Source: a virus. From it: 25,244 bases of DNA. The stretch is taken from the IMG/VR virus record IMGVR_UViG_3300028571_000106, positions 1 to 25,244 of that record. The stretch is one strand, 5' to 3'. The notes under the pieces were generated by a model. That model had not been told where the DNA came from. It made no database searches and worked only from the letters and a program-made list of their open reading frames with translations. Shown one piece after another: positions 2,789-25,244 of the stretch; the first letter of the stretch is position 1, and every line of letters begins with the position of its first letter. Made by a program: the position numbers and the translations under genes.

Positions 2789-4195
2789 ATGGCAACAGTC
2801 AATAAAAACTTTAGAGTCAAGAATGGCTTAACAGTTGACGGTAACGTAACCATCACAGGTACTAACGGTACAATTAACAGTTCAAACATTCTTACCGAAG
2901 CTACCGTGGCATACCCTAATGTATTTGCAACAATTAGTGCTAACGGAACATCAGTCGTTGCAGATACCAGCACTGATACACTTACACTCACACCAAGCAC
3001 TGGAATTACAATTGTTGGTAACGCAACAAGCGATACAATCACAATTACTAACTCAGATCTTGGTTCAGCACAAAACATCTTTAAAACATTCATTGCAAAT
3101 GGAACATCAATTGTAGCGGCTAACAACTCCGACACAATTACCATTACACCAAGTACTGGAATTACTATTGCAGGTAACGCAACAAGCGATACCATTACAA
3201 TTACTAACTCTGGTGTAACAGGTCTTACTGGAACTGCAAATGAGGTTGAAGTTTCTGGATCTACTGGTTCAGTAACAATTGGTCTTCCTAATGACGTAAC
3301 AATTGGCAATAACCTTACTGTTACAGGAAACCTAACAGTTAGTGGTACAACTACAACCCTTAACACAGATACCCTTGCTGTTGAAGACAACATCGTTGTT
3401 CTTAATAGCAATATTACTGGCACACCAACACTTGATGCTGGTATTGAAGTTGAGCGTGGAGATTACACTAATGCAAAGATCTTCTGGAAGGAATCAGCAA
3501 ATGCCTGGTATCTTGCCACTCCTGGAGACTCTGGATCTGCAGCCTCAGAAGCAGTTATTGCAACTGGTGGATCAGTAAACGTATTCAACAACTTTTCTGA
3601 CGGAACAAACATTGCTTCTCCAGATAGTTCAGACGACACCTTTACATTCACAGCAGGTACTGGAGTTACAGCAGTGGTTAGTACAGCAGGAGATTCTCTT
3701 ACAATCACAAACACTGGTGTAACATCGCTTACTGGAACAGCAGACCAGATTGTTGCAAATGCTTCAAGCGGTAGCGTACTTCTTTCACTACCCCAGAGCA
3801 TTAACACAACATCTGCCGTTAGCTTTGCGAATGTTACCGCTGGAAATGTTATTGCAAATACTGTTGTTATGCAACAGGCTGCTATTGACACATTCTCAGT
3901 TGGACTAACAGACACAAGTGCAACTGGTGTAGATACTGCTTGGAGTTCTTCAACATATGGAACTGCAAAGTACACCATTCAGGCTCGTAATGGTTCTGGA
4001 GATATCTACGCAATTGAAATTCTTGCGGTAGCTACAGGATCAAACGTCTATGTAACAGAATATGCTGAAGTATATAGTTCAGCAGAACCAATCATTACAA
4101 CAGACGTTACAAATGCAGCTGGATCAGTACAACTTTCAGTTACTGGAACCAACGGTGTAACTGTTAAAACTACCAGAACATTGATCGAAGTCTAA
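2789..4195 (+). CDS. Tail fibre protein with three 45-residue repeats (468 aa)
   Basis: This gene has an AAGGAG Shine-Dalgarno at 2775-2780. The N-terminus (MATVNKNFRVKNGLTVDG) is shared with the next fibre gene and is probably the tail anchor. Residues 45-89, 97-141 and 265-309 are three 45-residue beta repeats of the type ANGTSxVADxSxDTxTxTPSTGIT. This motif is widespread in fibres of marine and cyanobacterial phages. Between them, residues about 160-240 carry LTVTGNLTVSGTTTTLNTDT and the IEVERGDYTNAKIFWKES motif, which occurs in many aquatic phage fibres. The C-terminus carries the same module as the preceding 148-residue protein. A trimeric, elongated fibre involved in host attachment is the likely role; no lyase or hydrolase motif is visible. 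Confidence 0.8.
   Translation: MATVNKNFRVKNGLTVDGNVTITGTNGTINSSNILTEATVAYPNVFATISANGTSVVADTSTDTLTLTPSTGITIVGNATSDTITITNSDLGSAQNIFKTFIANGTSIVAANNSDTITITPSTGITIAGNATSDTITITNSGVTGLTGTANEVEVSGSTGSVTIGLPNDVTIGNNLTVTGNLTVSGTTTTLNTDTLAVEDNIVVLNSNITGTPTLDAGIEVERGDYTNAKIFWKESANAWYLATPGDSGSAASEAVIATGGSVNVFNNFSDGTNIASPDSSDDTFTFTAGTGVTAVVSTAGDSLTITNTGVTSLTGTADQIVANASSGSVLLSLPQSINTTSAVSFANVTAGNVIANTVVMQQAAIDTFSVGLTDTSATGVDTAWSSSTYGTAKYTIQARNGSGDIYAIEILAVATGSNVYVTEYAEVYSSAEPIITTDVTNAAGSVQLSVTGTNGVTVKTTRTLIEV
2921..3715 (+). repeat. Three copies of a 135-base in-frame repeat in a fibre gene
   Basis: Copies lie at 2921-3055, 3077-3211 and 3581-3715, each exactly 135 bases (45 codons) without indels. Copies 1 and 2 are very similar at the protein level, both ending in GNATSDTITITNS. 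Copy 3 is degenerate, with FSDGTNIASPDSSDDTFTFT in its first half. They probably encode stacked beta units of the fibre shaft. Confidence 0.75.
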
Positions 4196-6826: not shown

Positions 6827-6864
6827 AAAAATAGCCCCTTTCGGGGCTATTCTTATTTCTTTTT
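6825..6864. terminator. Bidirectional rho-independent terminator
   Basis: A perfect 9-base-pair stem, AATAGCCCC (6830-6838) and GGGGCTATT (6843-6851), has a TTTC loop. A run of A at 6825-6831 gives the T tract for the minus-strand gene; the T-rich 6853-6864 serves the plus strand. It sits between convergent genes whose stops are at 6824-6826 and 6853-6855. Confidence 0.9.
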
Positions 6865-7635
6865 AGTTTTAGGTTTTGGCTTTTCTTCTGGAATATTTTC
6901 AACTACCGATGCAGTTAACATCATTGTAGAGGCAAAACTACCATCAAAAATGTATTCCCCTGCGTGAACAATCTTTACCCAAGGTGCAGCAAAGACTTCT
7001 CCACCAAGTTCACGGTACTTACGGCAGAAGTGGTAATCCTCCGAAAGAAGAATGCCATCTTCGGTAATGCTGGTAGCAAAGTATTCAGTCACCATTTGAG
7101 AAGCATCAAATGCACCAGTAGATGTATTTAACATATACTGTGGGCAGTGTGGCTTCATTGTTTTGAATACTTCTTTCTTAATGAATAGCATTCCTGTGCC
7201 AACTTCAGTAACAGGAACTGGTTCATTCATTTTAAAAGTAGTCTCTCCAGGCAACATGTTCATAGCAAAGAATCCAGAATATTGAGATAGATTTTCTTCA
7301 CCCTTGAGTGCAGCCTGTCGTACATTTTCCCAGTTAATGTTTTTCATTGGGTAGATAGCACCAATAACATCTTTACCAGACTCGATCATTTCGATAACGT
7401 CAACATGATTAAACCCCTCGTCACCGTCAATGAATAGTAGTGCATCAGCACCAGATTTCTCAAACTCGTGTACTAGATTATTCCTAGCACGAGTAATAAG
7501 ACTTTCGTTGTATATCTTTGAAAAGGAGACTTGGTATCCCTTACGAGCAAGCTCAAAGGTTAGTGCCATTAGTCCGTCAAGATATACACCCTTACAGTTT
7601 CCCCCATACATTGGGGTAGCAATATGTAAATGCAT
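6853..7635 (-). CDS. GT-A type glycosyltransferase (260 aa)
   Basis: The protein starts MHLHIATPMYGGN. Residues 48-52 are TRARN and 66-75 are ALLFIDGDEG, giving a D70-G-D72 (DxD) motif that in GT-A glycosyltransferases binds metal and nucleotide-sugar. KDVIGAIYPMK follows, then EVGTGMLFIKKEVF and a C-terminal EDYHFCRKYRELGG segment, the usual pattern of phage GT2-like or Anp1-like enzymes. The Lys/Pro-rich tail (PEEKPKPKTKKK) is unstructured. I chose the start at 7635 because GGAGAG lies three bases upstream and the promoter lies behind it; a longer frame to 7821 would run through the promoter. It is the only minus-strand gene among structural genes. It may decorate virion proteins or alter host surface sugars; the substrate is unknown. 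Confidence 0.8.
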   Translation of the reverse strand: MHLHIATPMYGGNCKGVYLDGLMALTFELARKGYQVSFSKIYNESLITRARNNLVHEFEKSGADALLFIDGDEGFNHVDVIEMIESGKDVIGAIYPMKNINWENVRQAALKGEENLSQYSGFFAMNMLPGETTFKMNEPVPVTEVGTGMLFIKKEVFKTMKPHCPQYMLNTSTGAFDASQMVTEYFATSITEDGILLSEDYHFCRKYRELGGEVFAAPWVKIVHAGEYIFDGSFASTMMLTASVVENIPEEKPKPKTKKK

Positions 7636-7663
7636 TGTCTCTCCATCTATTAGTTGTATAAAC

Positions 7664-7692
7664 ATTATACCAGAAAACCTAAGTATGGTAAA
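7664..7692 (-). promoter_or_regulatory. Promoter of the glycosyltransferase gene (-35/-10)
   Basis: On the minus strand, TTTACC (7692-7687) and TATAAT (7669-7664) are separated by 17 bases, and the -10 is extended by TG (TGGTATAAT). The leader is about 22-30 bases and holds GGAGAG before the ATG at 7635. This is the most complete -35/-10 pair in the window. It overlaps the region just upstream of the plus-strand LamG gene. Confidence 0.75.
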
Positions 7693-7708
7693 CTTAGTTA
7701 GAGGAAAA

Positions 7709-10700
7709 ATGACAAATAGGTACGCTGACTCAATTACTAGAGACAATCCCATTGCCGTATGGGATTTAAATGACGTACTGCCCCCAGCATCAGTAGTCGA
7801 TCTTGAGTCATCGATCAACATTTCTGCATATGGCTCACCCCTAACTGGGTATAATGATACTTCTTTAAATAACGGATATTACATCTCAAGCGACACTACA
7901 GCGGCAAATGTTGCATCAGACAATAACGGAATGCCAATGGTTTATGGTGCGACTAACATAACTAACATTTATCCAATAACAAGCAAGCCATCAATAATTA
8001 TTCCAGGCTTTGGCTTCTTAAATGATGATGGTAAAGATAAAGTATATACTTTAGAATTTTGGGCAAGAATAAACTCTTCAGCACACTACCCACAAAAAAT
8101 TGTTGGACCAATTCAATCAGATAACGGAATCTATGTAAATGGACCATATATTTCATTAAAGATAGAAGACGTAATTAAGTCACACTATGTTGGAGAATGG
8201 GACAGACCCATGCTGATTCATTTTACATACAACAGATCATCGTCTAGTTTAATAATTAATGGTGAAACCGTTATTTCCCTGAATCACGATTTAACAAATT
8301 TTAATTTGCCAACAAAATTAACAGATGCAGGAAAAGATCAGGACTGGATTGGGTTTTATGCGTACTCGAATGTGCCACAAATTCAGCTAGACTGTATTGC
8401 AATTTATGCATATCAAATGTCTGAAGTCAATGCAAAGCTTCACTTTGTTAAAGGACAATCTGTAGAGGTTCCACAATTAAAATTTGGTAACTTCTCTGAA
8501 ATGCCAGTAATGATAGATTATCAAGTTGCTAAATATTCCAACAACTACGTCTATCCTGGAAACGGTAGATGGCAAAATGGAGTAGTTAAAAATCTATCAA
8601 CAGACGGACAAGTTCTTTTTGCCCCAGAGTACAAACTTCCAAAACTAGTTCTTCAAAACAACAGTCAATCATTTGTGGAATGGTGCGACCTAAACAATAC
8701 TCTTTCTGGACAATCAACAACTTCAAGTTTAACTTCTGGCTCTATCATTAACGACGATGTGTTTTTTAGAATAGTTCCAGACAACACAGACGCAATTGCT
8801 GACGGAGCAGAAGCAGCAGAAAGTTTTTATACTGCAGGATATCTAGAGTTTGAAAAACTTAGTGTTCTATCTGAACCAATTAAGTTAATTTATGGTGTAT
8901 ACAAACTTGCTGAAACTCCAACATCAAATGAAATTCTTTTCAGAGTAATTAATACTAGTAACGAATACTTCGAAGCAGTTGTTAATTCTTCAAATCAAAT
9001 AGTTTACAAATTTATCTCTGGATCTTCAATAACAACTATAGATACAGTTACAATAACCAATACCGCCAATAAATTTTCTGCAGGGGTAGACATTGATCAA
9101 TTACTAACAGCAGAAAACAATACAGCACTTTCTTCATTTTTTACAAACCAAGGAGACTTAAAAGTATTTCTTGGAGGCTCTCCAGATTTAAATGTTACTG
9201 GAACTTCTACAGCAAAAATGTTTAGAGGAAATATTTACAAGTTTGGGTTTGGAGATAAAAAGAATATCAATAAGGTTTATGCCCTAGACCAATCATCTGG
9301 CGGAGGTGCAGAATTTACCGATGGAATTGTTAGACACAACAGCACAATCCTGCCAAGCCACTTTGCAAGCTACACCCTTATTGCAGTTAATACATTTGGA
9401 GTCCTTGACTTAGACATAGCAGTAGATTCTTCCTGGGAAGACTATGTTCCATTATCACTTTTAGCCAAAAATGTTATTGCCGACTCTTCTGGAACATTAG
9501 AGTATGCATTAGACTTTATTCAAATAAACATAGATCATCCAGAATCAATTGCTTCTGCAAACTCAACAGTAAAGTCTTATGTAGAATTTTTAGAGGTAGC
9601 AACCTCAACAGTTTCAACCAATCAAACAGAAAAAACATATGTCTCTGCATCATCTAATAGCGTTCTAATCCCAGACTCTACTTGGATTAATAAAAAATAT
9701 CAAATATTAAATAACCACATTGTGTATTTGCCTACAGGTGGATTCTCCGACTTTAATGATCTATCAATATCTGTTTCGTTTGAGATTAAAATTCCTGGTA
9801 TTTTTAGAAATCCCCTAAAGATTAAAAAATTACAACTTGCTTCACAAGCATATGACTACTCAGCACTCCCTACAGAAATTGGAACTAGATATTCTAGGGA
9901 TATCATTCCGTACACAATGGCAAACTCAACATCAATAGTTTACGACGGACTAAATCCTTATACAATTTATAAAGACAGCACTCCATATCTATATTTAAAT
10001 AAATATAGTGGAATTAAAATGGTTGGCTCAAACATTGGATCAGTTTTAGCAAACACTACGGTAGAAACAAAGGGTCTAAGAGTTTTAATTAACCCAACAG
10101 AAAAAGATTTCTATAAAGATAGCGTTGTGCAAATGTCAGTTATGAAGGATACTGCCTTTACTGCAAACTCAAGCGTTGAAATTTTTAGAATTACAGATAG
10201 AAATAATACATTTGTGATTGATGCACAAACAGGGGCAAACACAAACACTGCCTCACTTAGAGTAAGAACGTCTAGTGGAACTGCATATTCGTCTTATTCT
10301 GGGGTAAAGATTTTTGTAAATGGACAACAACATACAACAACTAATGGTGTTGCACAAACCGCAACAATAAGATATGGGCAGTGGAATACGATCGGTTTTA
10401 CCTTTGACCCACTTCTAGACTTTAATGAATATACAGGAAGCCTAGACATTACAGGTCCATTTATTATTAATAACATTGCAGATTATCAAATTGATAAATC
10501 AAAAGAAGGTTCGTCAGTTGTTTTTGCACAATGGGGAGCTGGACCATACTCTATTGTTGCTATGGGTAACTGGTCAGACGTTTATGCTACCGAACCAACC
10601 TGGAGAGATGTGCTAACTGGTGCAACAGTGCCTATCAGTATTGAGCTCAATGCGTTAGAAATTTATGGTTCTTATTTAGGAACAAGTAAGATTGGGGTGT

Positions 10701-10801
10701 CAGATAGCTTTGAAAACCTACACCTTATTGACGCTAAACAAAACAGCACAACCCTATACAGTGGTATAAGGTCGTCAACAATTACTGCTATACCGCTATA
10801 A
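7709..10801 (+). CDS. LamG-like (concanavalin A fold) tail appendage protein (1030 aa)
   Basis: The protein starts MTNRYADSITRDNPIAVWDL. The start at 7709 has GAGGA at 7701-7705; an in-frame ATG at 7685 is possible but has no such site. The open frame runs further upstream only because it crosses the opposite-strand gene. Residues about 113-250 form a LamG-like jelly roll (YTLEFWARINS, MLIHFTYNRSSSSLIINGE, DCIAIYAYQMSEVNAKLHF). A further LamG-like unit lies at about 785-935 (VVQMSVMKDTAFTANSSVEI through WNTIGFTFDP and IINNIADYQI), and the middle holds additional beta-sandwich segments. Such proteins are long minor tail or fibre components that may bind sugars. All 21 Arg codons I counted are AGA or AGG, unlike the head genes. 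The stop overlaps the next promoter. Confidence 0.8.
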   Translation: MTNRYADSITRDNPIAVWDLNDVLPPASVVDLESSINISAYGSPLTGYNDTSLNNGYYISSDTTAANVASDNNGMPMVYGATNITNIYPITSKPSIIIPGFGFLNDDGKDKVYTLEFWARINSSAHYPQKIVGPIQSDNGIYVNGPYISLKIEDVIKSHYVGEWDRPMLIHFTYNRSSSSLIINGETVISLNHDLTNFNLPTKLTDAGKDQDWIGFYAYSNVPQIQLDCIAIYAYQMSEVNAKLHFVKGQSVEVPQLKFGNFSEMPVMIDYQVAKYSNNYVYPGNGRWQNGVVKNLSTDGQVLFAPEYKLPKLVLQNNSQSFVEWCDLNNTLSGQSTTSSLTSGSIINDDVFFRIVPDNTDAIADGAEAAESFYTAGYLEFEKLSVLSEPIKLIYGVYKLAETPTSNEILFRVINTSNEYFEAVVNSSNQIVYKFISGSSITTIDTVTITNTANKFSAGVDIDQLLTAENNTALSSFFTNQGDLKVFLGGSPDLNVTGTSTAKMFRGNIYKFGFGDKKNINKVYALDQSSGGGAEFTDGIVRHNSTILPSHFASYTLIAVNTFGVLDLDIAVDSSWEDYVPLSLLAKNVIADSSGTLEYALDFIQINIDHPESIASANSTVKSYVEFLEVATSTVSTNQTEKTYVSASSNSVLIPDSTWINKKYQILNNHIVYLPTGGFSDFNDLSISVSFEIKIPGIFRNPLKIKKLQLASQAYDYSALPTEIGTRYSRDIIPYTMANSTSIVYDGLNPYTIYKDSTPYLYLNKYSGIKMVGSNIGSVLANTTVETKGLRVLINPTEKDFYKDSVVQMSVMKDTAFTANSSVEIFRITDRNNTFVIDAQTGANTNTASLRVRTSSGTAYSSYSGVKIFVNGQQHTTTNGVAQTATIRYGQWNTIGFTFDPLLDFNEYTGSLDITGPFIINNIADYQIDKSKEGSSVVFAQWGAGPYSIVAMGNWSDVYATEPTWRDVLTGATVPISIELNALEIYGSYLGTSKIGVSDSFENLHLIDAKQNSTTLYSGIRSSTITAIPL

Positions 10802-12875: not shown

Positions 12876-14129
12876 ATGACTATTTCTAAAGCCCATTGGC
12901 ACTCTGAAGGCGATAATGTTCGTCTGTCCATGCCGTTCTCAAAAGTTGATGAAGAGCGACGCATCGTCTCTGGTTTTGCAACCCTAGATAACGTTGACAA
13001 GCAGAATGACATCGTTACTCCAGAAGCTTCAATGAAAGCTTTTGAAAAGTTCCGTGGTAACATTCGTGAAATGCACCAGCCCAAGGCGGTAGGCAAAATG
13101 GTTTCATTCAAAGAGGACAAGTACTTTGACCCAGAGTCAAAGAAGTTTTATGCAGGTGTTTATGTATCAACATACATCTCAAAGGGTGCTCAGGACACTT
13201 GGGAAAAGGTTCTAGACGGAACACTTTCAGGTTTTTCCATTGGCGGAAAAATGAACCAGTGGGATGATGCCTTTGACGAAAAGATGGATGCCACTATTCG
13301 TATTATTAAAGACTACGACCTTGTAGAGTTATCACTAGTTGATACCCCTGCAAATCAGTTTGCAAATGTTTTGTCTGTTGAAAAAGTAGACGGAGTTGAC
13401 GTAATCAAGGGAGATGGCGTGGATGTAGAAATTGAAAATGTATTCTGGGACGAAGAAAACGGTATTGTTATGCTCTCAGATAAAGATTCAGAAGTTAGCC
13501 CCACCAGTGGTGCTGCAATGAAAAACATCGGCTTTGTAGAAAAGTCAGATGCAGAAAAACCAGAGATGGTAAAGTTCTTAGTAGATAGTGCTAAAGGCAT
13601 TAATACTTCTAAGATAACTAAGGAGGTAAGTCCTATGACTGATGAAGTAAATGAAACAGTCGCTGAGACAGTAGAAGAAGTCGCTGTTGAAGCAGAGGTC
13701 GCTCCAGAGGCAGATGTTGAAGTAGCAGAAGAGGTAACCGAAGAGGTGGCAACCGAAGAGGTTGTTGCTGATGAAGAAGTTGCTGAAAAGGCTGATTCAG
13801 TATCCAAGTCAGACGAGGTTCTTGTAGACGCAGTTGCTGAAATTAAGGATACCGTTACAAAAGCCTTTAGCGATCTAACCGCAGTTGTTCAGGCACAAGC
13901 CGAACAAATTGCACAATTAAGCAAGTCGATTGACTCTGTAAAAAATGAGGTAACAGAGACAAAGGGCGAGTTTAACGAGTTTGGAAAGAGAGTTGATGCT
14001 GTTGAGGCAGATACCGCTTTCCGCAAATCTGGCGATCTAGGCGAGATCGTACAGGAAAATCAATCAGATAAGATTGAGAAATCCCTATGGGACGGACGTT
14101 TCCTCAAAACTGCCGATCTATTCAAATAA
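12876..14129 (+). CDS. Prohead protease (XkdF/S78-like) fused to scaffold domain (417 aa)
   Basis: Residues 1-165 are a serine protease of the prohead type (XkdF-like). Key segments are RIVSGFATLDNVDKQNDIVT, EMHQPKAVGKMV with candidate catalytic His67, LSGFSIGGK with candidate nucleophile Ser121, and DLVELSLVDTPAN with candidate third residue Glu151. Residues about 254-345 are a very acidic Glu/Val/Ala repeat, and 325-385 (AVAEIKDTVTKAFSDLTAVV and onward) a heptad-like coiled coil. This is the scaffold half, ending SLWDGRFLKTADLFK. Protease plus scaffold in one gene is known in HK97-like phages; the protease matures capsid and scaffold during head assembly. A strong internal ribosome site allows scaffold to be made alone. 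The capsid gene follows after 23 bases. Confidence 0.85.
   Translation: MTISKAHWHSEGDNVRLSMPFSKVDEERRIVSGFATLDNVDKQNDIVTPEASMKAFEKFRGNIREMHQPKAVGKMVSFKEDKYFDPESKKFYAGVYVSTYISKGAQDTWEKVLDGTLSGFSIGGKMNQWDDAFDEKMDATIRIIKDYDLVELSLVDTPANQFANVLSVEKVDGVDVIKGDGVDVEIENVFWDEENGIVMLSDKDSEVSPTSGAAMKNIGFVEKSDAEKPEMVKFLVDSAKGINTSKITKEVSPMTDEVNETVAETVEEVAVEAEVAPEADVEVAEEVTEEVATEEVVADEEVAEKADSVSKSDEVLVDAVAEIKDTVTKAFSDLTAVVQAQAEQIAQLSKSIDSVKNEVTETKGEFNEFGKRVDAVEADTAFRKSGDLGEIVQENQSDKIEKSLWDGRFLKTADLFK
13618..13627 (+). promoter_or_regulatory. Internal Shine-Dalgarno for nested scaffold start
   Basis: CTAAGGAGGT within the protease-scaffold gene lies 8 bases before an in-frame ATG at 13635. It is as strong as the site of the capsid gene (TAGGAGGTGA at 14139-14148) and the best match to the 16S rRNA tail inside any coding region I checked. 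Confidence 0.75.
13635..14129 (+). CDS. Nested in-frame scaffold protein (164 aa), overlapping the protease gene
   Basis: Translation from the ATG at 13635 (residue 254 of the fusion) gives a 164-residue protein starting MTDEVNETVAETVEEVAVEA. It holds the acidic repeat and the coiled coil and lacks the protease. Such a pair, protease-scaffold plus scaffold alone from the same frame, is established for lambda C and Nu3. Support here is the near-perfect Shine-Dalgarno with 8-base spacing, and the exact coincidence of the start with the boundary between protease linker and scaffold. The first residues also resemble the N-terminus of the separate gene at 15331. The product would be made in excess to guide capsid assembly and then be degraded. 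It is not proven to be expressed. Confidence 0.65.
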   Translation: MTDEVNETVAETVEEVAVEAEVAPEADVEVAEEVTEEVATEEVVADEEVAEKADSVSKSDEVLVDAVAEIKDTVTKAFSDLTAVVQAQAEQIAQLSKSIDSVKNEVTETKGEFNEFGKRVDAVEADTAFRKSGDLGEIVQENQSDKIEKSLWDGRFLKTADLFK

Positions 14130-14152
14130 AAAATCACTTAGGAGGTGACAAA

Positions 14153-15247
14153 ATGTCGGAAGAGATTATTAAAAACTATCCAGGTGCAGGAGCCAATGAA
14201 ACAAATGGCGAAGGTGCATTCGCATCTGGAGGAATTGGTGGCGTTGCTAGTCCTGGAGCAGACACTCTAGGTAACATCCCCACCGCACAGTTTGGTGTAA
14301 CAACTGGACCAAACGCAGTAAATCCTTCGGGTGATGCAGGTAGTGGTATTCTACGTCCTGAACAAGCTCGTAGATTTATTGACTATGTTTGGGACGGTAC
14401 TGTTCTCGCCAAAGATGGTCGTAGAGTCACAATGAGAGCCAATACAATGGAACTCGAAAAGGTCAACGTTGGAGAACGAGTTATTCGTGCTGCAAACCAG
14501 GCTGACGCTACATACACAAACGCAGGTGCAACCTTTGCTAAGGTTGAACTAACAACAAAGAAACTCCGCCTTGACTGGGAAGTTTCTGCTGAGGCATTAG
14601 AAGACAACATTGAAGGTGCAGCCCTTGAGGACCACCTTGTTCGTCTAATGACCAACGCATTTGCAAATGACATTGAGGACCTTGCCATTAATGGTACAGG
14701 TACTGGAGGAAACTCCTTCCTTAACATTATGGAAGGTTTTGTTCGCAAGGTTCGTTTCGGTGGAGATGCTCACGAGTATTCTGCAACCGTTACAAGCGGT
14801 GCGTGGACTCCAGAAGTTCTTCAGGGTGTCATTTCTGCCCTACCAAGAAAGTATCGTGCTCTTAAGAACGGTCTAAAGTTCTATGCAAGCACTGACACAT
14901 TCGCGGATATTGTCAGATCAAATGGTACTGGGTCAAACAGCATTTTCACAGACCAATACCGCAATTCATACCTTGCAGGTACTGATCAGATTGTCGGAGA
15001 AGCTCGTACAACTCGTATCTTAGGTATTCCAGTAATGGAAGTTCCTTACTACCCAGACAACTACATCGACCTCACATTCCCTTCAAACCGCATTTGGGGT
15101 TTCCAGCGAGACATCACTGTAAACCGTGAATACGTTGCTAAGAAAGACACAATCGAATACACCGTATTCGTTCGTTTCGGACTTCAGTGGGAAGAGGAAG
15201 ACGCTGTAGCTTGGGTTGATAGCGACAGCCAGGATTCATCTTCATAA
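14153..15247 (+). CDS. Major capsid protein, HK97 fold (364 aa)
   Basis: The start at 14153 has AGGAGGTGA 5 bases upstream; the longer frame to 14087 overlaps the scaffold end. Residues about 1-60 (MSEEIIKNYPGAGANE..., Gly-rich) are a flexible N-arm. Residues 61 onward show the HK97-fold order: ILRPEQARRFIDYVWDGTVL, then GERVIRAANQAD, KKLRLDWEVSAEALEDN in the spine-helix region, and DIEDLAINGTGTGG. It closes with RILGIPVMEVPYYPDN and the RIWGFQRDITVNREYVAKK strand region of the P and A domains. It forms the head shell. Position after protease-scaffold is canonical. Most Arg codons are CGN (17 of 22 by my count), typical of high expression here. A terminator follows. Confidence 0.9.
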   Translation: MSEEIIKNYPGAGANETNGEGAFASGGIGGVASPGADTLGNIPTAQFGVTTGPNAVNPSGDAGSGILRPEQARRFIDYVWDGTVLAKDGRRVTMRANTMELEKVNVGERVIRAANQADATYTNAGATFAKVELTTKKLRLDWEVSAEALEDNIEGAALEDHLVRLMTNAFANDIEDLAINGTGTGGNSFLNIMEGFVRKVRFGGDAHEYSATVTSGAWTPEVLQGVISALPRKYRALKNGLKFYASTDTFADIVRSNGTGSNSIFTDQYRNSYLAGTDQIVGEARTTRILGIPVMEVPYYPDNYIDLTFPSNRIWGFQRDITVNREYVAKKDTIEYTVFVRFGLQWEEEDAVAWVDSDSQDSSS

Positions 15248-18481: not shown

Positions 18482-19192
18482 ATGGCATATTCACGTGGTA
18501 CAAGTGCTAACATCATCGTTGGTGCAGCAGCACTTTTCACATACGAAGACGGTCCAATCGGTCAGAACACAAGTGGTGGTATTACCAACACTCAAGCTGA
18601 ACTCGATTTGCCCGACTTCCAAACCAACATTTCTTACAAGGAGACTCTCGCAAATGCAACAAACGAGGTCGATTTCCGTAATGTTGGTTACACAATGAAC
18701 GGTCTTGAAATTGTCTTCCAACCTGACTTCGGTGAGGTACAGGTTGACCAGGTTCTCGACGTTGCTAAGCTTTACAAGCAGGGAATGCAGGTTAACCTTA
18801 ACACAGCATTCGCTGAGGCAACACTAGATAACTTGCTCTTTGCAATTGCAGGGCAGTCAAGCGACCTTTCAGCTACATACACCAGTGCTACATCACAGAG
18901 TGCATTCGGAACACCAACTTACGACGGTGACCGAGTTCTAAATCTTGGTGCAGGAAACATTGGCGAATGTCCAGTTGAACGTGGTCTCGTTGCAGTTGGT
19001 CCAGGTACAGGAGACTGTGCAGCTGGTTCATCAATTGAGCGAATCTACGTTGCATACCGTGCTCTTTCAATCGAAAGCGTTACAGTATCAGCAAAGCGTG
19101 ACGAAGCTACAATGTTCGAAGTCTCATTCAGACTTCTCCCTAACGACAATGCGTCTTATGGAAAGATTGTAGACCGCACACTCGCATCATAA
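18482..19192 (+). CDS. Major tail tube protein (236 aa)
   Basis: It polymerises into the tail tube. It starts MAYSRGTSANIIVGAAALFT, continues TNTQAELDLPDFQTNISYKE and NEVDFRNVGYTMNGLEIVFQ, and ends MFEVSFRLLPNDNASYGKIV. The opening strand with a small-residue patch, a central GEVQVDQVLDVAKLYKQGMQ helix and the closing VTVSAKRDEATMFEVSF strand match tail tube proteins of siphoviruses, and the length fits. There are two Cys residues near GECPVERG and GTGDCAAG. It has its own promoter and a good Shine-Dalgarno, with a terminator directly behind it, consistent with very high expression. No sheath gene is present, so the tail is not contractile as far as seen. Confidence 0.8.
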   Translation: MAYSRGTSANIIVGAAALFTYEDGPIGQNTSGGITNTQAELDLPDFQTNISYKETLANATNEVDFRNVGYTMNGLEIVFQPDFGEVQVDQVLDVAKLYKQGMQVNLNTAFAEATLDNLLFAIAGQSSDLSATYTSATSQSAFGTPTYDGDRVLNLGAGNIGECPVERGLVAVGPGTGDCAAGSSIERIYVAYRALSIESVTVSAKRDEATMFEVSFRLLPNDNASYGKIVDRTLAS

Positions 19193-19208
19193 CTTAATAC
19201 AATCAGGA

Positions 19209-19244
19209 CTGCTCAGAGTTTTGGCTCTGGGCAGTTTTGTTTTT
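19209..19244 (+). terminator. Terminator after the tail tube gene
   Basis: A 10-base-pair stem, CTGCTCAGAG (19209-19218) with CTCTGGGCAG (19225-19234) and one wobble position, has a TTTTGG loop and is followed by TTTTGTTTTT (19235-19244). The last T is also the first base of the next extended -10 box, so terminator and promoter abut. Confidence 0.9.
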
Positions 19245-19252
19245 GGTACAAT
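19244..19252 (+). promoter_or_regulatory. Extended -10 promoter of the long chaperone gene, leaderless type
   Basis: TGGTACAAT, hexamer TACAAT at 19247-19252, one change from consensus. The ATG at 19259 follows after 6 bases with no Shine-Dalgarno. The promoter overlaps the T tract of the tail tube terminator. Confidence 0.6.
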
Positions 19253-19258
19253 AGATGT

Positions 19259-19948
19259 ATGGCAACAGAAATTTATGAAACAGGAACTACTACGCTGGTA
19301 GACGGAACAGAGATATACCTAACACCTCTAAAGATTAAATACCTTAGAGAATTTATGAAAGAGTTTGATAATGTTAAACTTGCAAAAGATGATGCAGAAG
19401 CAGTTTCGGCATTAGCACAATGTGCCAGGGTATGTATGAAACAATTTTATCCATCCATAAAGACTATAGAGGACTTAGAGGATAACTTTAGCCTACCAGC
19501 TATTTATAAAGTATTAGACATTGCAGCTGGGATCAAGATTGATGGAGACGATGAAGAAGAGCCAGTAAAAGACCAAGCGGTTGATAGTGGGTCTACCTGG
19601 GAAAACTTAGATCTAGCAACACTAGAGGCAGAAGTATTTCTTTTAGGAATATGGAAAGACTTTGAAGAGCTTGAATCATCAATATCAATGCCAGAACTAA
19701 CGTCAATTCTTAATGTAAAAAGAGATTTAGATTACCAGGAAAAAAAGTTTATGGCTGGTATTCAGGGGGTAGACCTTGACAAAGAGAGCGGTGCTCAAGA
19801 CCTATGGGAACAAAAGAAAGCTAAATTCTTTAGTGGCGGTGCTACATCGGATGGCAACGATGTGGTTGCTCTACAGGGAGCAAATGCAGCAAAGGCTGGT
19901 TTTGGAATTGGCATGGGGCTAGGATATGAAAAACTAGTCGAAAACTAA
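19259..19948 (+). CDS. Tail assembly chaperone, long form (gpGT-like, 229 aa) in one continuous frame
   Basis: Residues 1-94 (MATEIYETGTTTLVDGTEIY to YKVLDIAAGIKI) are the G-like domain. Residues 95-120 are an acidic linker. Residues 120-229 (WENLDLATLEAEVFLLGIWK, then MPELTSILNVKRDLDYQEKK, GVDLDKESGAQDLWEQKKAK and AKAGFGIGMGLGYEKLV) match the downstream T-like extension of siphovirus chaperones. In most phages this long form arises by a programmed frameshift; here it is uninterrupted. Together the forms bind and deliver the tape measure during tail assembly. No slippery heptamer is seen near the domain junction. It is translated from a probably leaderless mRNA, which would keep its level low. 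A paralogue of its N-terminal domain follows. Confidence 0.8.
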   Translation: MATEIYETGTTTLVDGTEIYLTPLKIKYLREFMKEFDNVKLAKDDAEAVSALAQCARVCMKQFYPSIKTIEDLEDNFSLPAIYKVLDIAAGIKIDGDDEEEPVKDQAVDSGSTWENLDLATLEAEVFLLGIWKDFEELESSISMPELTSILNVKRDLDYQEKKFMAGIQGVDLDKESGAQDLWEQKKAKFFSGGATSDGNDVVALQGANAAKAGFGIGMGLGYEKLVEN

Positions 19949-19958
19949 ACGGCTTTTG

Positions 19959-19967
19959 TGATATAAT
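19959..19967 (+). promoter_or_regulatory. Extended -10 promoter of the short chaperone gene
   Basis: TGATATAAT, hexamer 19962-19967. The leader is about 20 bases and holds AAGGAGG (19982-19988) 5 bases before the ATG at 19994; an additional AAGGAG lies at 19970-19975. The string GTGATATAATTTAA is identical to that at 1568-1581. Confidence 0.7.
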
Positions 19968-19993
19968 TTAAGGAGCCTAACAAGGAGGAAACA

Positions 19994-20311
19994 ATGGCAA
20001 CAACAATTAATGAAGCTACACAGCTTACACTTATCGACGGAACAGTACTTAATGTCCGTCCACTAAAGATCTCACTACTTCGTGATTTTATGAAGGAGTT
20101 CGAGGGTATTGCTAAAGTAGCAGACGATAACGCAAAGTCAATGGACATACTTATGAAGTGTGTTCAAATTGCAATGAAGCAGTACAGTCCAGAACTAGCA
20201 GCAGATGTAGCCGCTCTTGAGGACAATATTGATCTACCAACCGTTTATAAGGTGGTAGAAGCAGCATCTGGAATTAACCTGTCAGATACTGTAGCTGGTC
20301 TTATGGGCTAG
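19994..20311 (+). CDS. Tail assembly chaperone, short form (gpG-like, 105 aa), paralogue of the long form
   Basis: The protein is MATTINEATQLTLIDGTVLN, then PLKISLLRDFMKEFEGIAKV, CVQIAMKQYSPELAADVAAL and EDNIDLPTVYKVVEAASGI. It aligns along its whole length with residues 1-94 of the preceding gene: TLVDGT and TLIDGT, LREFMKEFDN and LRDFMKEFEG, MKQF and MKQY, LEDNF and LEDNI, YKVLDIAAGI and YKVVEAASGI. It stops at TAG shortly after that homology. It directly precedes the tape measure gene, the usual place of these chaperones. Its strong Shine-Dalgarno suggests higher output than the long form, matching the G-excess known in lambda. An AAAAAGGGG run lies only after the stop, so no frameshift site is evident. 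Confidence 0.8.
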   Translation: MATTINEATQLTLIDGTVLNVRPLKISLLRDFMKEFEGIAKVADDNAKSMDILMKCVQIAMKQYSPELAADVAALEDNIDLPTVYKVVEAASGINLSDTVAGLMG

Positions 20312-20335: not shown

Positions 20336-23300
20336 ATGGCTGAAGATGCAAATGCTAATATCCGCATAGATATTGACACTACCGCTGCTACTGCAGCACT
20401 TAAAGCCTTACAAGGTCAAATCGCAAGATTTCACACAGAAATGGCTCGTGGTGGAGCAGTAGCTGGTCAAAACGCTGCTAAGCTACAGCAAGATTTACTA
20501 AACTCTATTAATGCTGGTGGTCAGTTCCAGGCTGGAATGACAAAGGTTCAGTCAACCACCGAAGCATTTACTACTGCCCTTGAGAAAAACAAACTTTCGA
20601 TGGGGCAGTATTTTAGATATGCTGCTGCATCTACAAAAACATTTGGACGATTCTTCCGTGGTGAATTTGAAACAATTACAAAGGTAGCTACCGAAAGAGT
20701 TAAAGATCTTCAGACTCAATATATCTCAATGGGTCGTGATGCCAATGGTGCATTGAAGGCAATCAAGGTTAGACCACTAACTCTTGATATGAATGACCTT
20801 GCAACAAAAACAATGATTGCTGCACAAAAGCAGCAACTATATAATCAACTTCTAAAGCAAGGTTCTACTAACCTCCTAAACTTTGGTAAGAACACCCAAT
20901 GGGCTGGTCGTCAGCTTATGGTTGGTTTTACACTTCCCCTTACATTATTTGCAAGCACTGCCGCAAAGTCCTTTATGGAAATTGAAAAGCAGGTAATCAG
21001 AATTCGTCGTGTTTATGGAGACTTCTCTACCACAGTTGCAGAAACCGACCAGATGATTGATTCAATCAAAACCCTTGCAGGAGAGTACACAAAGTATGGC
21101 GTTGCAGTTTCAGACACACTAGGACTTGCTGCTGAAGCCGCAGCCGCTGGTAAAGCTGGTCAAGAGCTTTTAGCTCAGGTTTCTGAAGCTACTCGCCTAG
21201 CAGTTCTGGGTAACGTAGAGCAAACTCAAGCTCTTGAAACAACAATGTCAATTACAAACGCATTTGGTACTGCAACAGAAGACCTTGCTAAAAAGATTAA
21301 CTTCCTTAACGCAGTAGAAAACCAATCGGTCACATCAATTGAAGACCTTACCATTGCTATTCCAAAAGCTGGACCTGTTGTTCAGCAACTTGGTGGAGAC
21401 GTAGAGGACCTAGCATTCTTCCTAACAGCCATGAAGGAAGGTGGGATTAACGCATCAGAAGGTGCTAACGCACTCAAGTCTGGTCTTGCTGCACTTATTA
21501 ACCCGACTGGCAAAGCAAAAGAAATGCTTAATGGATTTGGCATTAACATTGAGAAAATTGTTAATTCAAACAAGGGAGACATTCAAGGGCTTGTAATCGA
21601 CTTTGCTTCCGCACTTGACACACTAGATCCACTAAGCCGTGCTCGTGCCATCGAGCAACTATTTGGTAAGTTCCAGTTCTCACGTCTATCTACACTTTTT
21701 CAGAACGTTATTGGCGAGGGTACACAGGCAAGCCGTGTTCTTGAACTAACTAAAGCAACCACACAAGAACTTGCAATCTTATCTCAACGAGAACTTAAAA
21801 AGGTAGAAGAGACAACTACCTACAAGTTTGAAAAAGCTTTTGCAGACTTCCAGGCAGCACTCGCACCTGTGGGAGAAGAATTCCTAAAGGCTATTACTCC
21901 AGTTATTGAATTTGGAACAAAGCTACTTAATCAATTTAATAACATGGGAGACGGTGCTAAATCATTTGCTGTTATCCTGACTAGCGTTGTCGCAGGTATC
22001 GGACCTGTTCTGCTTATGACTGTTGGTCTTGTTGCCAACGGTGTTGCAAACCTTATTAAAATGTTCCAATTACTTGGAAATATATTCAATAAATCTGGGG
22101 CAGATACAACAACCCTAGGTCTACAAACAGAGTACATGACTCAACAACAGATTGAAGCAGCAGCAGTAGCGGCATCACTTAATCAGTCACATAGCAGACT
22201 TGCACAAACATTTAGCGTAGAGGCAGCATCACTTAATGCACTAACATTAGCATACCAAAAAGCAGTTACTGCACAACGTGGATTTGCAATGCCTGGGGGA
22301 CGAGTATCTGAAGCAGCTGTAAAACCAAAGAAGTATGCTGACGGTGTAGTTAGTGTACCTGGTCCCAAGGGTAAGGGCGATGTAGTTCCAGCAATGCTTT
22401 CACCAGGAGAAGCAGTTATTCCTGCTGGTATGGCTAAAAAGTATGGCGGTCTTATTAATGGAATGATTGCTGGAAATATTCCTGGTTATGAAGGTGGACT
22501 TGGAACTGGTTTTCAGATGCCAGCAACACTTTATGCAGATCAGAGTGCAAAAAGAAATATACAAAAAATAATAGACTCTCTACAAAGCGTAGAAGGAAGT
22601 ACAGAAGTACTAGATAAAGTTTTTAAAACTTTTGGTGAAGATACAAAGGTAACACTTAAAACATTTGGAGCAAGGCTACAGTACGCATCTGAACAGTCTG
22701 AAACATTTCCAACAATAAAACCAAATCAGTTAAATTCAATTTTAGATCCTACAGGGAAAACTGCACGATTTAGATATAGTGCTGGTGGGGGAAAACTTGA
22801 GACTCAGGTAGGCAACTCTGGTGACTTAAGATTACAAGAAGAATATCGAGTAGCACAACTTGCAAGAGATGCATCTGTTGCTGCAAGAAAAGAAGCAGGA
22901 CTTCCTATGGCTCAGTCTCAACAAATAGATAGAGCACATACAGAGTCGCTGCCAGCAGGTGGAAAGGCAACAAAGTCAGGATGGCTTTCATCACTCTGGA
23001 CTCCTCAGCCATCAGATATTAATCAATTATCAAATGATCTTGAAGACACCACAAGAAGAAACAAAAAGTTTTATGAAGAATATGTTGGACATCTTGGCAA
23101 CACAGTAACAGATGAAAAAGTAAAAACTGGAATGTTAAGAAAAATTAATTCTGGACTTGCCCTTAGTGCTAAAGAAATTGTTATTCAGGGTCAAATTTTA
23201 GATAAAATGTTAATAGATTCAACTTCAATTGTTAATTCCCCCAATAGCCAAAATCTAAGAGGAAGGGTGGTTGGATCTTCAGCTGCTGCTGGAGCATACG

Positions 23301-25244
23301 CAAACTTAGATCCAAATTTTGGGACAAGAACATCTGCAGAAGTTAGTGAAGCACTAAACGGTGTTACAAGAGAGCTTACTGGAGACTTTGTTGAGGGCGT
23401 AGAAGATTCTACAAGACAGGCATCTCCGTCAAAAGAAGCTTACGATTCTGGTGCTAACGTAGGTCAGGGTGCAATTAACGGAATTGACTCAAAGATTGAT
23501 GATGCAGCAAAATCTGGAGAAAAACTTGGACAGGCTACCGTTAATGGTACACAAGCTACAACAAGAACACCAGGAAAACGAGGACCGAGAAGAGTTCAAA
23601 CTGGAGTAAAAGACATGGGGGGGTTCCCAGTAAAAACAACTGCTGAAGGATCTCAAGTTATTATTGGTGACACAGGAAGATTTATACAAGAAGAAGAAAA
23701 GCCAGGCAAGAAACCTAGAACCCCAAGAGAACAAGAAGCAAGAGACAAGATGATTCGTCGCCGTGCCAGAAATGTAAAACTACACGCTATGGGTGGAAGC
23801 ATTGCTGCTGGCGTTAAAGGTATGGGCGGTATGGGGGCAGGTATGGGTGTTGCTATGGCTGGTGGAGCACTGGCTATGATACCTGGTCTTGAGGGGCTAG
23901 GAACCGCCGCAGGTCTTGCTGGTAGTGCAATGATGATGATTCCTGGACCGATTGGGATTGTGGTTGCTGCTCTGATAGGGCTAGTTGGCGTTATTATGTC
24001 ACTTAATGCTGCACAGGAAGAGCAAAAAAGAAAAGCTATTGAACTTGCAGAAGCTCAGGTAATGAGCATCGATGCACTTAAAACAATGTCCGAAGACTTT
24101 GGAACAGTCAGTGCAACAGAGGCGGCACAACGAAAAGAAGATGCAAAGGCTGGAGGAATAACCCAAAAAGAACTTACCGCAGGAGAGCAATATCTAACAG
24201 AAATGGCTAGTGGTCAAAAGATTCTTCAGGATGTTCAAACACAGCAAGCTGCTGGAATAACAGCATCAGAGATTGGACAGAATGTTGCTGCAAATATGGC
24301 AACAGCAGTTGCTCAGGGAGTAATTACTACAGAGCAAGCAGACGGAATTATTGTTGCTCTTGGAAGACTTGCTGGAGATCGTGCAATTACTGCTGGTGCT
24401 TCTCAGCAATTTGCAACATATACCGAAGACCCCACACAAATTTCTGGAATGGTTGCTCAGGATAGGCTTACACAATTGCAAGCACAGTTTAGTGCTGCAT
24501 CTAAGACAACAACTACTGTATCTGGACGAGGTGCTATAAGAACTATGGCAGATTCAAATGCTGCTTTAGGAGCAGTTGCTGGAACAATGAGTGCTTACGG
24601 TCAGGCTACTGGCGGTATTGATGCAATTAATGCTCAATACGATGCTTTAGTTAAAGAAGCAAAAACAAGAAAAGAAATTAATGAACTAGAAAGACGAAGA
24701 ACTGAAGACCTTACAATTCAAAGAGATCTTTCAGCAGCAACATATGCCGAACTTGAAAAACAAAAATCTACAATCGGTGCTGTAAAGTTTAATGAAGCTT
24801 TCTTGAAATCATTTGATAAAGATAGCGAAGCATATAAAACTGCAGAAAAAATTAATGGGCTTAAAGATAGCAAGTTTAAAACACAACTTCAGGCAGATTT
24901 TGCTGGTGGAAATATAAGTCAGGCAACCGTGGAGGCAATTGTAGGTGCAGCAGATAAAAATAAAGCTCTTACCGCATACTATACACTTCAGGCAAATGTT
25001 TCAATTAGTAAACAGGATGAAGCAACACTCGATAGGCTTGAAGAACAGTACGGCATTGACAGCGACACTGGAGATGGAAAAGATAGCAAAGGTAAAGGCA
25101 AGGGTGGAAAAAATGACGGTGGCGACAGTGGCAGCGGTGGGGGCGGATCCTCTGAAGAAGAAAGCCCACTCGAAAAGAAAATAAAGAAACGTAGCAAAGC
25201 ACTTCAAATTATTGGTCTAAAAGAAGCGGCAATTAATAAAAAGT
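20336..25244 (+). CDS. Tape measure protein, partial at the window end (at least 1636 aa)
   Basis: The frame is open from the ATG at 20336 to the last base; I read it line by line without a stop. Start: MAEDANANIRIDIDTTAATA, with AAGGGGAA 10 bases upstream; an ATG at 20332 stops after three codons. Features in order: a hydrophobic stretch at about 190-212 (LMVGFTLPLTLFAS), an alpha-helical TMP core (KSFMEIEKQVIRIRRVYGDF, then TKYGVAVSDTLGLAAEAAAA), a second hydrophobic stretch at about 543-577, and the TMP motif VVPAMLSPGEAVIP at about 682-695. These are followed by SPSKEAYDSGANVGQG at about 1031-1046, a Gly/Met/Ala hydrophobic stretch at 1153-1223 and a Gly/Lys/Ser linker at about 1577-1606. 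It sets tail length; at roughly 1.5 angstrom per residue, at least about 245 nm. Arg codons shift from CGN to AGA partway. Confidence 0.9.
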   Translation, partial: MAEDANANIRIDIDTTAATAALKALQGQIARFHTEMARGGAVAGQNAAKLQQDLLNSINAGGQFQAGMTKVQSTTEAFTTALEKNKLSMGQYFRYAAASTKTFGRFFRGEFETITKVATERVKDLQTQYISMGRDANGALKAIKVRPLTLDMNDLATKTMIAAQKQQLYNQLLKQGSTNLLNFGKNTQWAGRQLMVGFTLPLTLFASTAAKSFMEIEKQVIRIRRVYGDFSTTVAETDQMIDSIKTLAGEYTKYGVAVSDTLGLAAEAAAAGKAGQELLAQVSEATRLAVLGNVEQTQALETTMSITNAFGTATEDLAKKINFLNAVENQSVTSIEDLTIAIPKAGPVVQQLGGDVEDLAFFLTAMKEGGINASEGANALKSGLAALINPTGKAKEMLNGFGINIEKIVNSNKGDIQGLVIDFASALDTLDPLSRARAIEQLFGKFQFSRLSTLFQNVIGEGTQASRVLELTKATTQELAILSQRELKKVEETTTYKFEKAFADFQAALAPVGEEFLKAITPVIEFGTKLLNQFNNMGDGAKSFAVILTSVVAGIGPVLLMTVGLVANGVANLIKMFQLLGNIFNKSGADTTTLGLQTEYMTQQQIEAAAVAASLNQSHSRLAQTFSVEAASLNALTLAYQKAVTAQRGFAMPGGRVSEAAVKPKKYADGVVSVPGPKGKGDVVPAMLSPGEAVIPAGMAKKYGGLINGMIAGNIPGYEGGLGTGFQMPATLYADQSAKRNIQKIIDSLQSVEGSTEVLDKVFKTFGEDTKVTLKTFGARLQYASEQSETFPTIKPNQLNSILDPTGKTARFRYSAGGGKLETQVGNSGDLRLQEEYRVAQLARDASVAARKEAGLPMAQSQQIDRAHTESLPAGGKATKSGWLSSLWTPQPSDINQLSNDLEDTTRRNKKFYEEYVGHLGNTVTDEKVKTGMLRKINSGLALSAKEIVIQGQILDKMLIDSTSIVNSPNSQNLRGRVVGSSAAAGAYANLDPNFGTRTSAEVSEALNGVTRELTGDFVEGVEDSTRQASPSKEAYDSGANVGQGAINGIDSKIDDAAKSGEKLGQATVNGTQATTRTPGKRGPRRVQTGVKDMGGFPVKTTAEGSQVIIGDTGRFIQEEEKPGKKPRTPREQEARDKMIRRRARNVKLHAMGGSIAAGVKGMGGMGAGMGVAMAGGALAMIPGLEGLGTAAGLAGSAMMMIPGPIGIVVAALIGLVGVIMSLNAAQEEQKRKAIELAEAQVMSIDALKTMSEDFGTVSATEAAQRKEDAKAGGITQKELTAGEQYLTEMASGQKILQDVQTQQAAGITASEIGQNVAANMATAVAQGVITTEQADGIIVALGRLAGDRAITAGASQQFATYTEDPTQISGMVAQDRLTQLQAQFSAASKTTTTVSGRGAIRTMADSNAALGAVAGTMSAYGQATGGIDAINAQYDALVKEAKTRKEINELERRRTEDLTIQRDLSAATYAELEKQKSTIGAVKFNEAFLKSFDKDSEAYKTAEKINGLKDSKFKTQLQADFAGGNISQATVEAIVGAADKNKALTAYYTLQANVSISKQDEATLDRLEEQYGIDSDTGDGKDSKGKGKGGKNDGGDSGSGGGGSSEEESPLEKKIKKRSKALQIIGLKEAAINKK

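Follow-up and report, generated by a model that had tools for sequence, protein, structure and literature searches.

Adjacent genes for putative G- and GT-type tail assembly chaperones in a phage clade that has probably lost the programmed frameshift

The phage represented by IMG/VR record IMGVR_UViG_3300028571_000106, whose 25,244 bases constitute the window analyzed here, very likely makes its G and GT tail assembly chaperones from two separate genes, which arose by duplication and divided the labour between them, with recoding lost and the ratio of the two products presumably set at initiation. Few recoding events of tailed phages are as conserved as the G/GT frameshift; the conserved -1 frameshift of long-tailed phages was reportedly described by Xu, Hendrix and Duda in 2004. 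According to the review PMC5009743, long-tailed phages widely share it, T4 being the exception, and the roles that this review describes for G and GT in lambda are the basis for the chaperone roles considered in this work.

The locus and its two chaperone proteins

PHROG and other profile searches revealed in the window a head-to-tail structural module on the + strand, in the order portal, head protease, major capsid protein, connector-type genes, major tail protein, long chaperone gene, short chaperone gene and tape measure. The major tail protein gene (18482..19192) matches PHROG 2175, annotated as 'protein with Ig domain' (E=4.8e-32), whose Streptomyces phage equivalents are major tail proteins, while the tape measure protein gene (20336..25244), which runs off the window end, was recognized by TIGR01760 (E=7.4e-35) and PHROG 10030 (E=3.8e-100). 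The position between these two genes, which is that of G and GT, is occupied by the long gene (19259..19948, 229 residues) and the short gene (19994..20311, 105 residues), all of them on the + strand. The major tail protein gene is followed at its 3' side by an intrinsic terminator (19204..19239, + strand), with a 16-pair stem, a T tract and a hairpin of about -24 kcal/mol. This strong hairpin, which separates the major tail protein and long genes, had been missed by the preliminary description of this DNA, and similar hairpins are also visible in related loci.

Some further features of the module deserve mention. An ORF of 322 codons occupies the - strand at 6853-7821, inside the otherwise + strand module, and is adjoined by a hairpin-like inverted repeat near 6834-6852. 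The listed start of ORF 7430-10801 falls within this opposite-strand ORF, a likelier start being the ATG at 7709, after AGAGGAAAA; its protein, of about 1000 residues, found no match in PHROG. The first ATG of the major capsid ORF (14087-15247) overlaps the protease gene, and the start at 14153, with AGGAGGTGA before the ATG, is likelier. For ORF 2789-4195 the hits were weak and pointed to families of the baseplate wedge (PHROG 677, E=7.6e-6), although the nearest named relatives, the Streptomyces Stanwilliamsviridae, are phages with long, non-contractile tails.

The preliminary description had considered the first gene to encode a continuous G+T-like protein and the second a G-like paralogue of its first 94 residues, and this was borne out by BLASTP, which aligned residues 1-94 of the long protein with residues 1-96 of the short one at 45% identity over 96 residues (E = 1e-27). 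The long gene is thus a continuous ORF made of a G domain (19259..19540), a linker and a T domain (about residues 114-229, 19598..19945), the latter equivalent to the ORF that relatives carry in the -1 frame. Both proteins match PHROG 10504, the long one at residues 1-99 and the short one with E=2.1e-16, and residues 131-177 of the long protein match PHROG 10474. The two proteins share their N-terminal G part, and only the long form bears the T extension. Similarity to PHROG 1932 was weak, E<=0.1 being reached by 14 of 36 members, and neither Pfam nor NCBIfam provided anything useful for either protein. By tblastn, similarity to Streptomyces phage genes, many of them annotated as tail assembly chaperones, reached E values down to 4e-29.

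The structure models were of middling confidence (pLDDT 74 for the short protein and 70 for the long one). The best match of the long model in BFVD was an unnamed protein (35% identity, E=3e-14). Another unnamed protein came next in the viral structure library, followed by weaker hits to one named as a tail assembly chaperone (E=0.004) and to GT, a tail protein of N15 (E=0.015); lower in the list stood the chaperone frameshift protein of an Enterococcus phage (E=0.056). The PDB fold searches yielded nothing significant: the solved HK97 chaperone 2ob9 aligned at a TM of 0.44 without significance (E=6), and the long model had no significant match. The PDB sequence search returned chance matches only. 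Homology, gene order and the existence of relatives with a -1 frameshift point to a tail assembly chaperone function for both proteins. Values of dN/dS ranged from 0.03 to 0.13 for the long gene and from 0 to 0.18 for the short one, so that purifying selection acts on both, and both are very likely used.

Two arrangements among related phages and the fate of the slip site

Relatives were collected in four large IMG/VR scans and a fifth one that gave 8 loci, and each locus was read by profile. Two arrangements were found. In the first, a fused G and T gene is followed by a separate G gene, as occurs in the window, in two fetched copies of it and in 92 further loci; these 92 are the related IMG/VR loci that reach far enough downstream, and every one of them has the pair in the same order, with no exception where the DNA is visible. 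In the second, found in 213 loci (some of which are the same contig fetched twice), a single G gene is accompanied by a T in the overlapping -1 frame. No intermediate arrangement appeared among the loci read, and the few remaining ones were cut off by contig ends. A scan with the T domain only, a query that favours neither arrangement through its G part, retrieved 62 frameshift loci and 16 pair loci.

Among annotated phages, the protein search found only those of Streptomyces and a few of Rhodococcus. In the Stanwilliamsviridae examined, G and T are two frames of one locus, with T in -1, annotated as tail assembly chaperones, and in the Streptomyces phages Emma1919 and Stigma the chaperone is annotated as a -1-joined CDS. 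Relatives were also sought in bacterial genome contigs, where none was found, and hence no prophage or host link. The low GC content (about 40%), the homology to Streptomyces phages and the leaderless-type starts described below suggest hosts among the Actinobacteria of fresh or other surface waters, and the clade consists of aquatic phages, probably of actinobacterial hosts.

The frameshift loci display a conserved slip site: in 77 of 84 non-redundant loci, an in-phase CCCAAAC or CCCAAAT (CCCAAAY) falls in a single column of the alignment. In the frameshift loci listed, the opening of the -1 frame coincides with the heptamer or precedes it by a few codons. The Asp-Pro-Asn peptide encoded at this site is written GAC CCA AAY in 76/76 genes, while elsewhere in the same genes GAC accounts for 29% of the other Asp codons and CCA for 63% of the other Pro codons. 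Two of the searches used a peptide with NDPN, so the sampling favours the peptide but not the choice of codons. In Streptomyces phage Targaryen (L083, 3285-3345), CCCGGAA replaces CCCAAAY and the -1 frame opens just before it, at the equivalent place; the slip site of this phage may be a divergent one.

Neither gene of the pair contains CCCAAAY. In the slip-site region of the window, the long gene reads AAG ATT GAT GGA GAC and the short gene AAC CTG TCA GAT ACT. The long genes have no slippery heptamer in common at their G/T junction, and no column of the short genes holds one in more than 2 of 41. Past the G stop, the -1 frame remains open for about 88-121 codons in 82/84 frameshift loci and typically for fewer than 20 in the short genes, and no T-like frame was found behind the short gene, nor an open one in either paralogue. 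The short genes of two loci, L056 and L212, have a long -1 frame past the stop, and these frames, once read, proved not to be T-like. With a continuous long ORF and no slip site at its junction, the pair lacks the usual, though not universal, hallmarks of a programmed frameshift. The proposal made in the preliminary description, that is, gene duplication with loss of recoding, has withstood this scrutiny: the search it advised for the same pair in related phages produced 92 loci, its scan of both genes for slippery heptamers and its watch for a T-like frame reached from the short gene came out as just given, and the pair is fixed in a clade whose sisters keep the heptamer that neither paralogue retains.

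Start signals of the long and short genes

It had also been claimed that the long form comes first, lacks a Shine-Dalgarno sequence and has a -10 box 6 bases before its ATG, and that the short form possesses AAGGAGG and a promoter of its own. All these features were confirmed and proved to be conserved. In the window, 6 bases separate the end of a TACAAT box (19247-19252) from the long ATG, and a TG one base further up makes this the extended -10 box TGG-TACAAT (19244..19252, + strand). A -10-like box lies 5-9 bases before the ATG of the long gene in 37/37 non-redundant upstream regions, 30 of them at exactly 6 when the best box is counted, whereas shuffled upstream regions gave a mean of about 1.6; the TG extension is present in 33 of the 37. 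The duplex of the window's long gene with the anti-Shine-Dalgarno sequence amounts to -2.9 kcal/mol, and this is also the median of the long genes, compared with -10.4 for the short genes (n=43) and -10.2 kcal/mol for the frameshift genes (n=84).

The short gene is preceded by an extended -10 box, TGA-TATAAT (19959..19967, + strand; TATAAT at 19962-19967), 26 bases before its ATG, and by the Shine-Dalgarno sequence AAGGAGG (19982..19988, + strand), with a duplex of -11.2 kcal/mol. A -10 box about 20-38 bases upstream was found in 43/43 short genes and in 82/84 frameshift genes, and a box at the close distance typical of the long gene in none of either set (0/43 and 0/84). Judged from these signals, the transcript of the long gene is predicted to be leaderless, and would be translated as such. 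The control region of the short gene looks like that of the ancestral G gene, and the leaderless-type start of the long gene looks new.

Other genes of the window, namely those at 133-561, 2327-2773, 12876-14129 and also 1587-1991, carry a -10-like box 6-9 bases before the ATG, and three of these four have hardly any Shine-Dalgarno sequence. Since the genes at 133, 2327 and 12876 look leaderless too, this would be a normal start mode in the phage and not an oddity of a single gene.

Between the long and short genes the analysis found no terminator. Transcription reading through from the long gene's promoter should therefore extend into the short gene, which would then be supplied by both transcripts. 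This double supply may bias production towards G, which is expected to be in excess over GT, and it is the strength of initiation that presumably sets the G:GT ratio. We lean towards a more specific version, in which the rarer form is made from a leaderless transcript and the abundant one from a transcript that has both a leader and a strong ribosome site; leaderless as opposed to leadered initiation would then have replaced the slip as the means to set the ratio.

Origin of the pair, alternative readings and significance

In a tree of the major tail protein, constructed without locus L099 (for which the wrong ORF had been taken), the phages with the pair and the freshwater frameshift phages form one clade with a support of 100, and further frameshift lineages fall outside it. 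Given that frameshift phages sit on the outer branches, the frameshift is the older state. This tree requires two changes of arrangement at the fewest, one of them forced by well-supported branches, and is compatible with a single origin of the pair. The G domains of the long genes group together with a support of 0.84, and those of the short genes do so with 0.97. Within one genome the two domains are 30-50% identical, and the median of 41% points to an old duplication.

It could be argued that one of the two genes, the long or the short, was acquired from another phage, the resident locus then losing one function, instead of arising as a tandem copy. The FastTree topology lends itself to this idea, because the short G joins the G of the freshwater frameshift phages (0.86) and the long G stays outside both. 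However, by their T domains the long genes belong with the T of these very freshwater frameshift phages (the T domain of the window being 52-61% identical to the -1-frame T ORFs of most freshwater sister loci, L098-L165), and an AU test on the branching of the long G, the short G and the G of the frameshift relatives rejected no order. A tandem copy is simpler, and acquisition seems unlikely. The divergence of the paralogues, whose identity within one genome is below that typical of orthologues, could also mean that the short protein has taken a new role, for instance as a factor for one segment of the tape measure, with the long gene as the sole chaperone and no G:GT ratio to maintain. This is quite improbable, considering that the single G of freshwater frameshift phages resembles the short protein more closely (about 53-62% identity) than the long G does, and that the short gene keeps a promoter and a ribosome site of ancestral type.

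Still less credence is given to the persistence of recoding, either by a dnaX-like slip in the long gene that would yield a truncated product resembling G, or by one at the end of the short gene leading into another frame. Some long genes do contain heptamers such as AAAAAAG, but these lie within the T domain (9/37 at one column), not in a junction column common to them; beyond the stop of the short genes, the -1 and +1 frames rarely stay open over more than 25 codons, the two exceptions being those mentioned above as not T-like. Finally, that the pair is an assembly artefact of one contig or a chance similarity is scarcely conceivable, and its artefact version is refuted by the 92 further loci from many metagenomes.

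The duplication model with division of labour integrates these observations as follows. The ancestor would have had one gene, giving both products through a -1 ribosomal slip at CCCAAAY, and the locus would have been duplicated early in the clade, probably once. One copy would have been fused in frame so as to make GT only, losing the slip site and gaining a new promoter of leaderless type right behind the tail tube gene's terminator, and the other would have lost T to make G only, keeping the promoter of ancestral type and the strong ribosome site. The short, G-type form is thought to coat the tape measure protein and the long, GT-type form to recruit the tail tube protein. Initiation of transcription and of translation would now determine their ratio, and read-through from the promoter of the long gene would add to the supply of G.

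In T4, separate genes for TAC-N and a fused TAC-NC are known as genes 26 and 51. One short gene and one longer fused gene are ascribed to some T4-like phages in a passage of PMC10885494 that cites Vladimirov, Gautam and Davidson (2022). A two-gene solution is thus already known from some T4-like phages, and the present case resembles theirs in having a short gene and a fused long gene without recoding. It differs in that the phages are related to the Stanwilliamsviridae, the genes are adjacent, the long one is first and leaderless in type, each has a promoter, and the arrangement is conserved over a clade whose sister group still frameshifts. With lambda it shares two products with a common N-terminal G, one with a T extension, encoded between the tail tube and tape measure genes; in contrast, there are here two genes without a slip site, and slippage cannot set the ratio. 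The chaperones of the Stanwilliamsviridae (Targaryen, Emma1919 and Stigma) have homologous G and T and the same gene order, but theirs is a single G gene with a -1-frame T. Another published case also has chaperone ORFs without a visible frameshift; in the wording of that source, the two ORFs are expressed separately, and it describes no duplicated G with a fused GT. No report of the present arrangement outside T4-like phages was found in the open-access literature. What is new is its second occurrence, in another phage group, together with its fixation over a clade, a sister group of the frameshift type in which the slip site is conserved, and the conserved contrast between leaderless and leadered starts. 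From the frameshift-type sister phages we infer an origin independent of the T4-like pair.

These findings bear a warning for annotation, because two chaperone genes need not mean an overlooked frameshift. In addition, a viral gene with a conserved, predicted leaderless start and a leadered paralogue next to it should be useful for studies of initiation in low-GC Actinobacteria, the presumed hosts. The clade represents a natural replacement experiment, unusually clear in its before and after, with the same proteins and with close relatives of the frameshift type as control. The two products, and not the slip, thus seem to be what must be kept, and whether initiation holds their ratio becomes testable.
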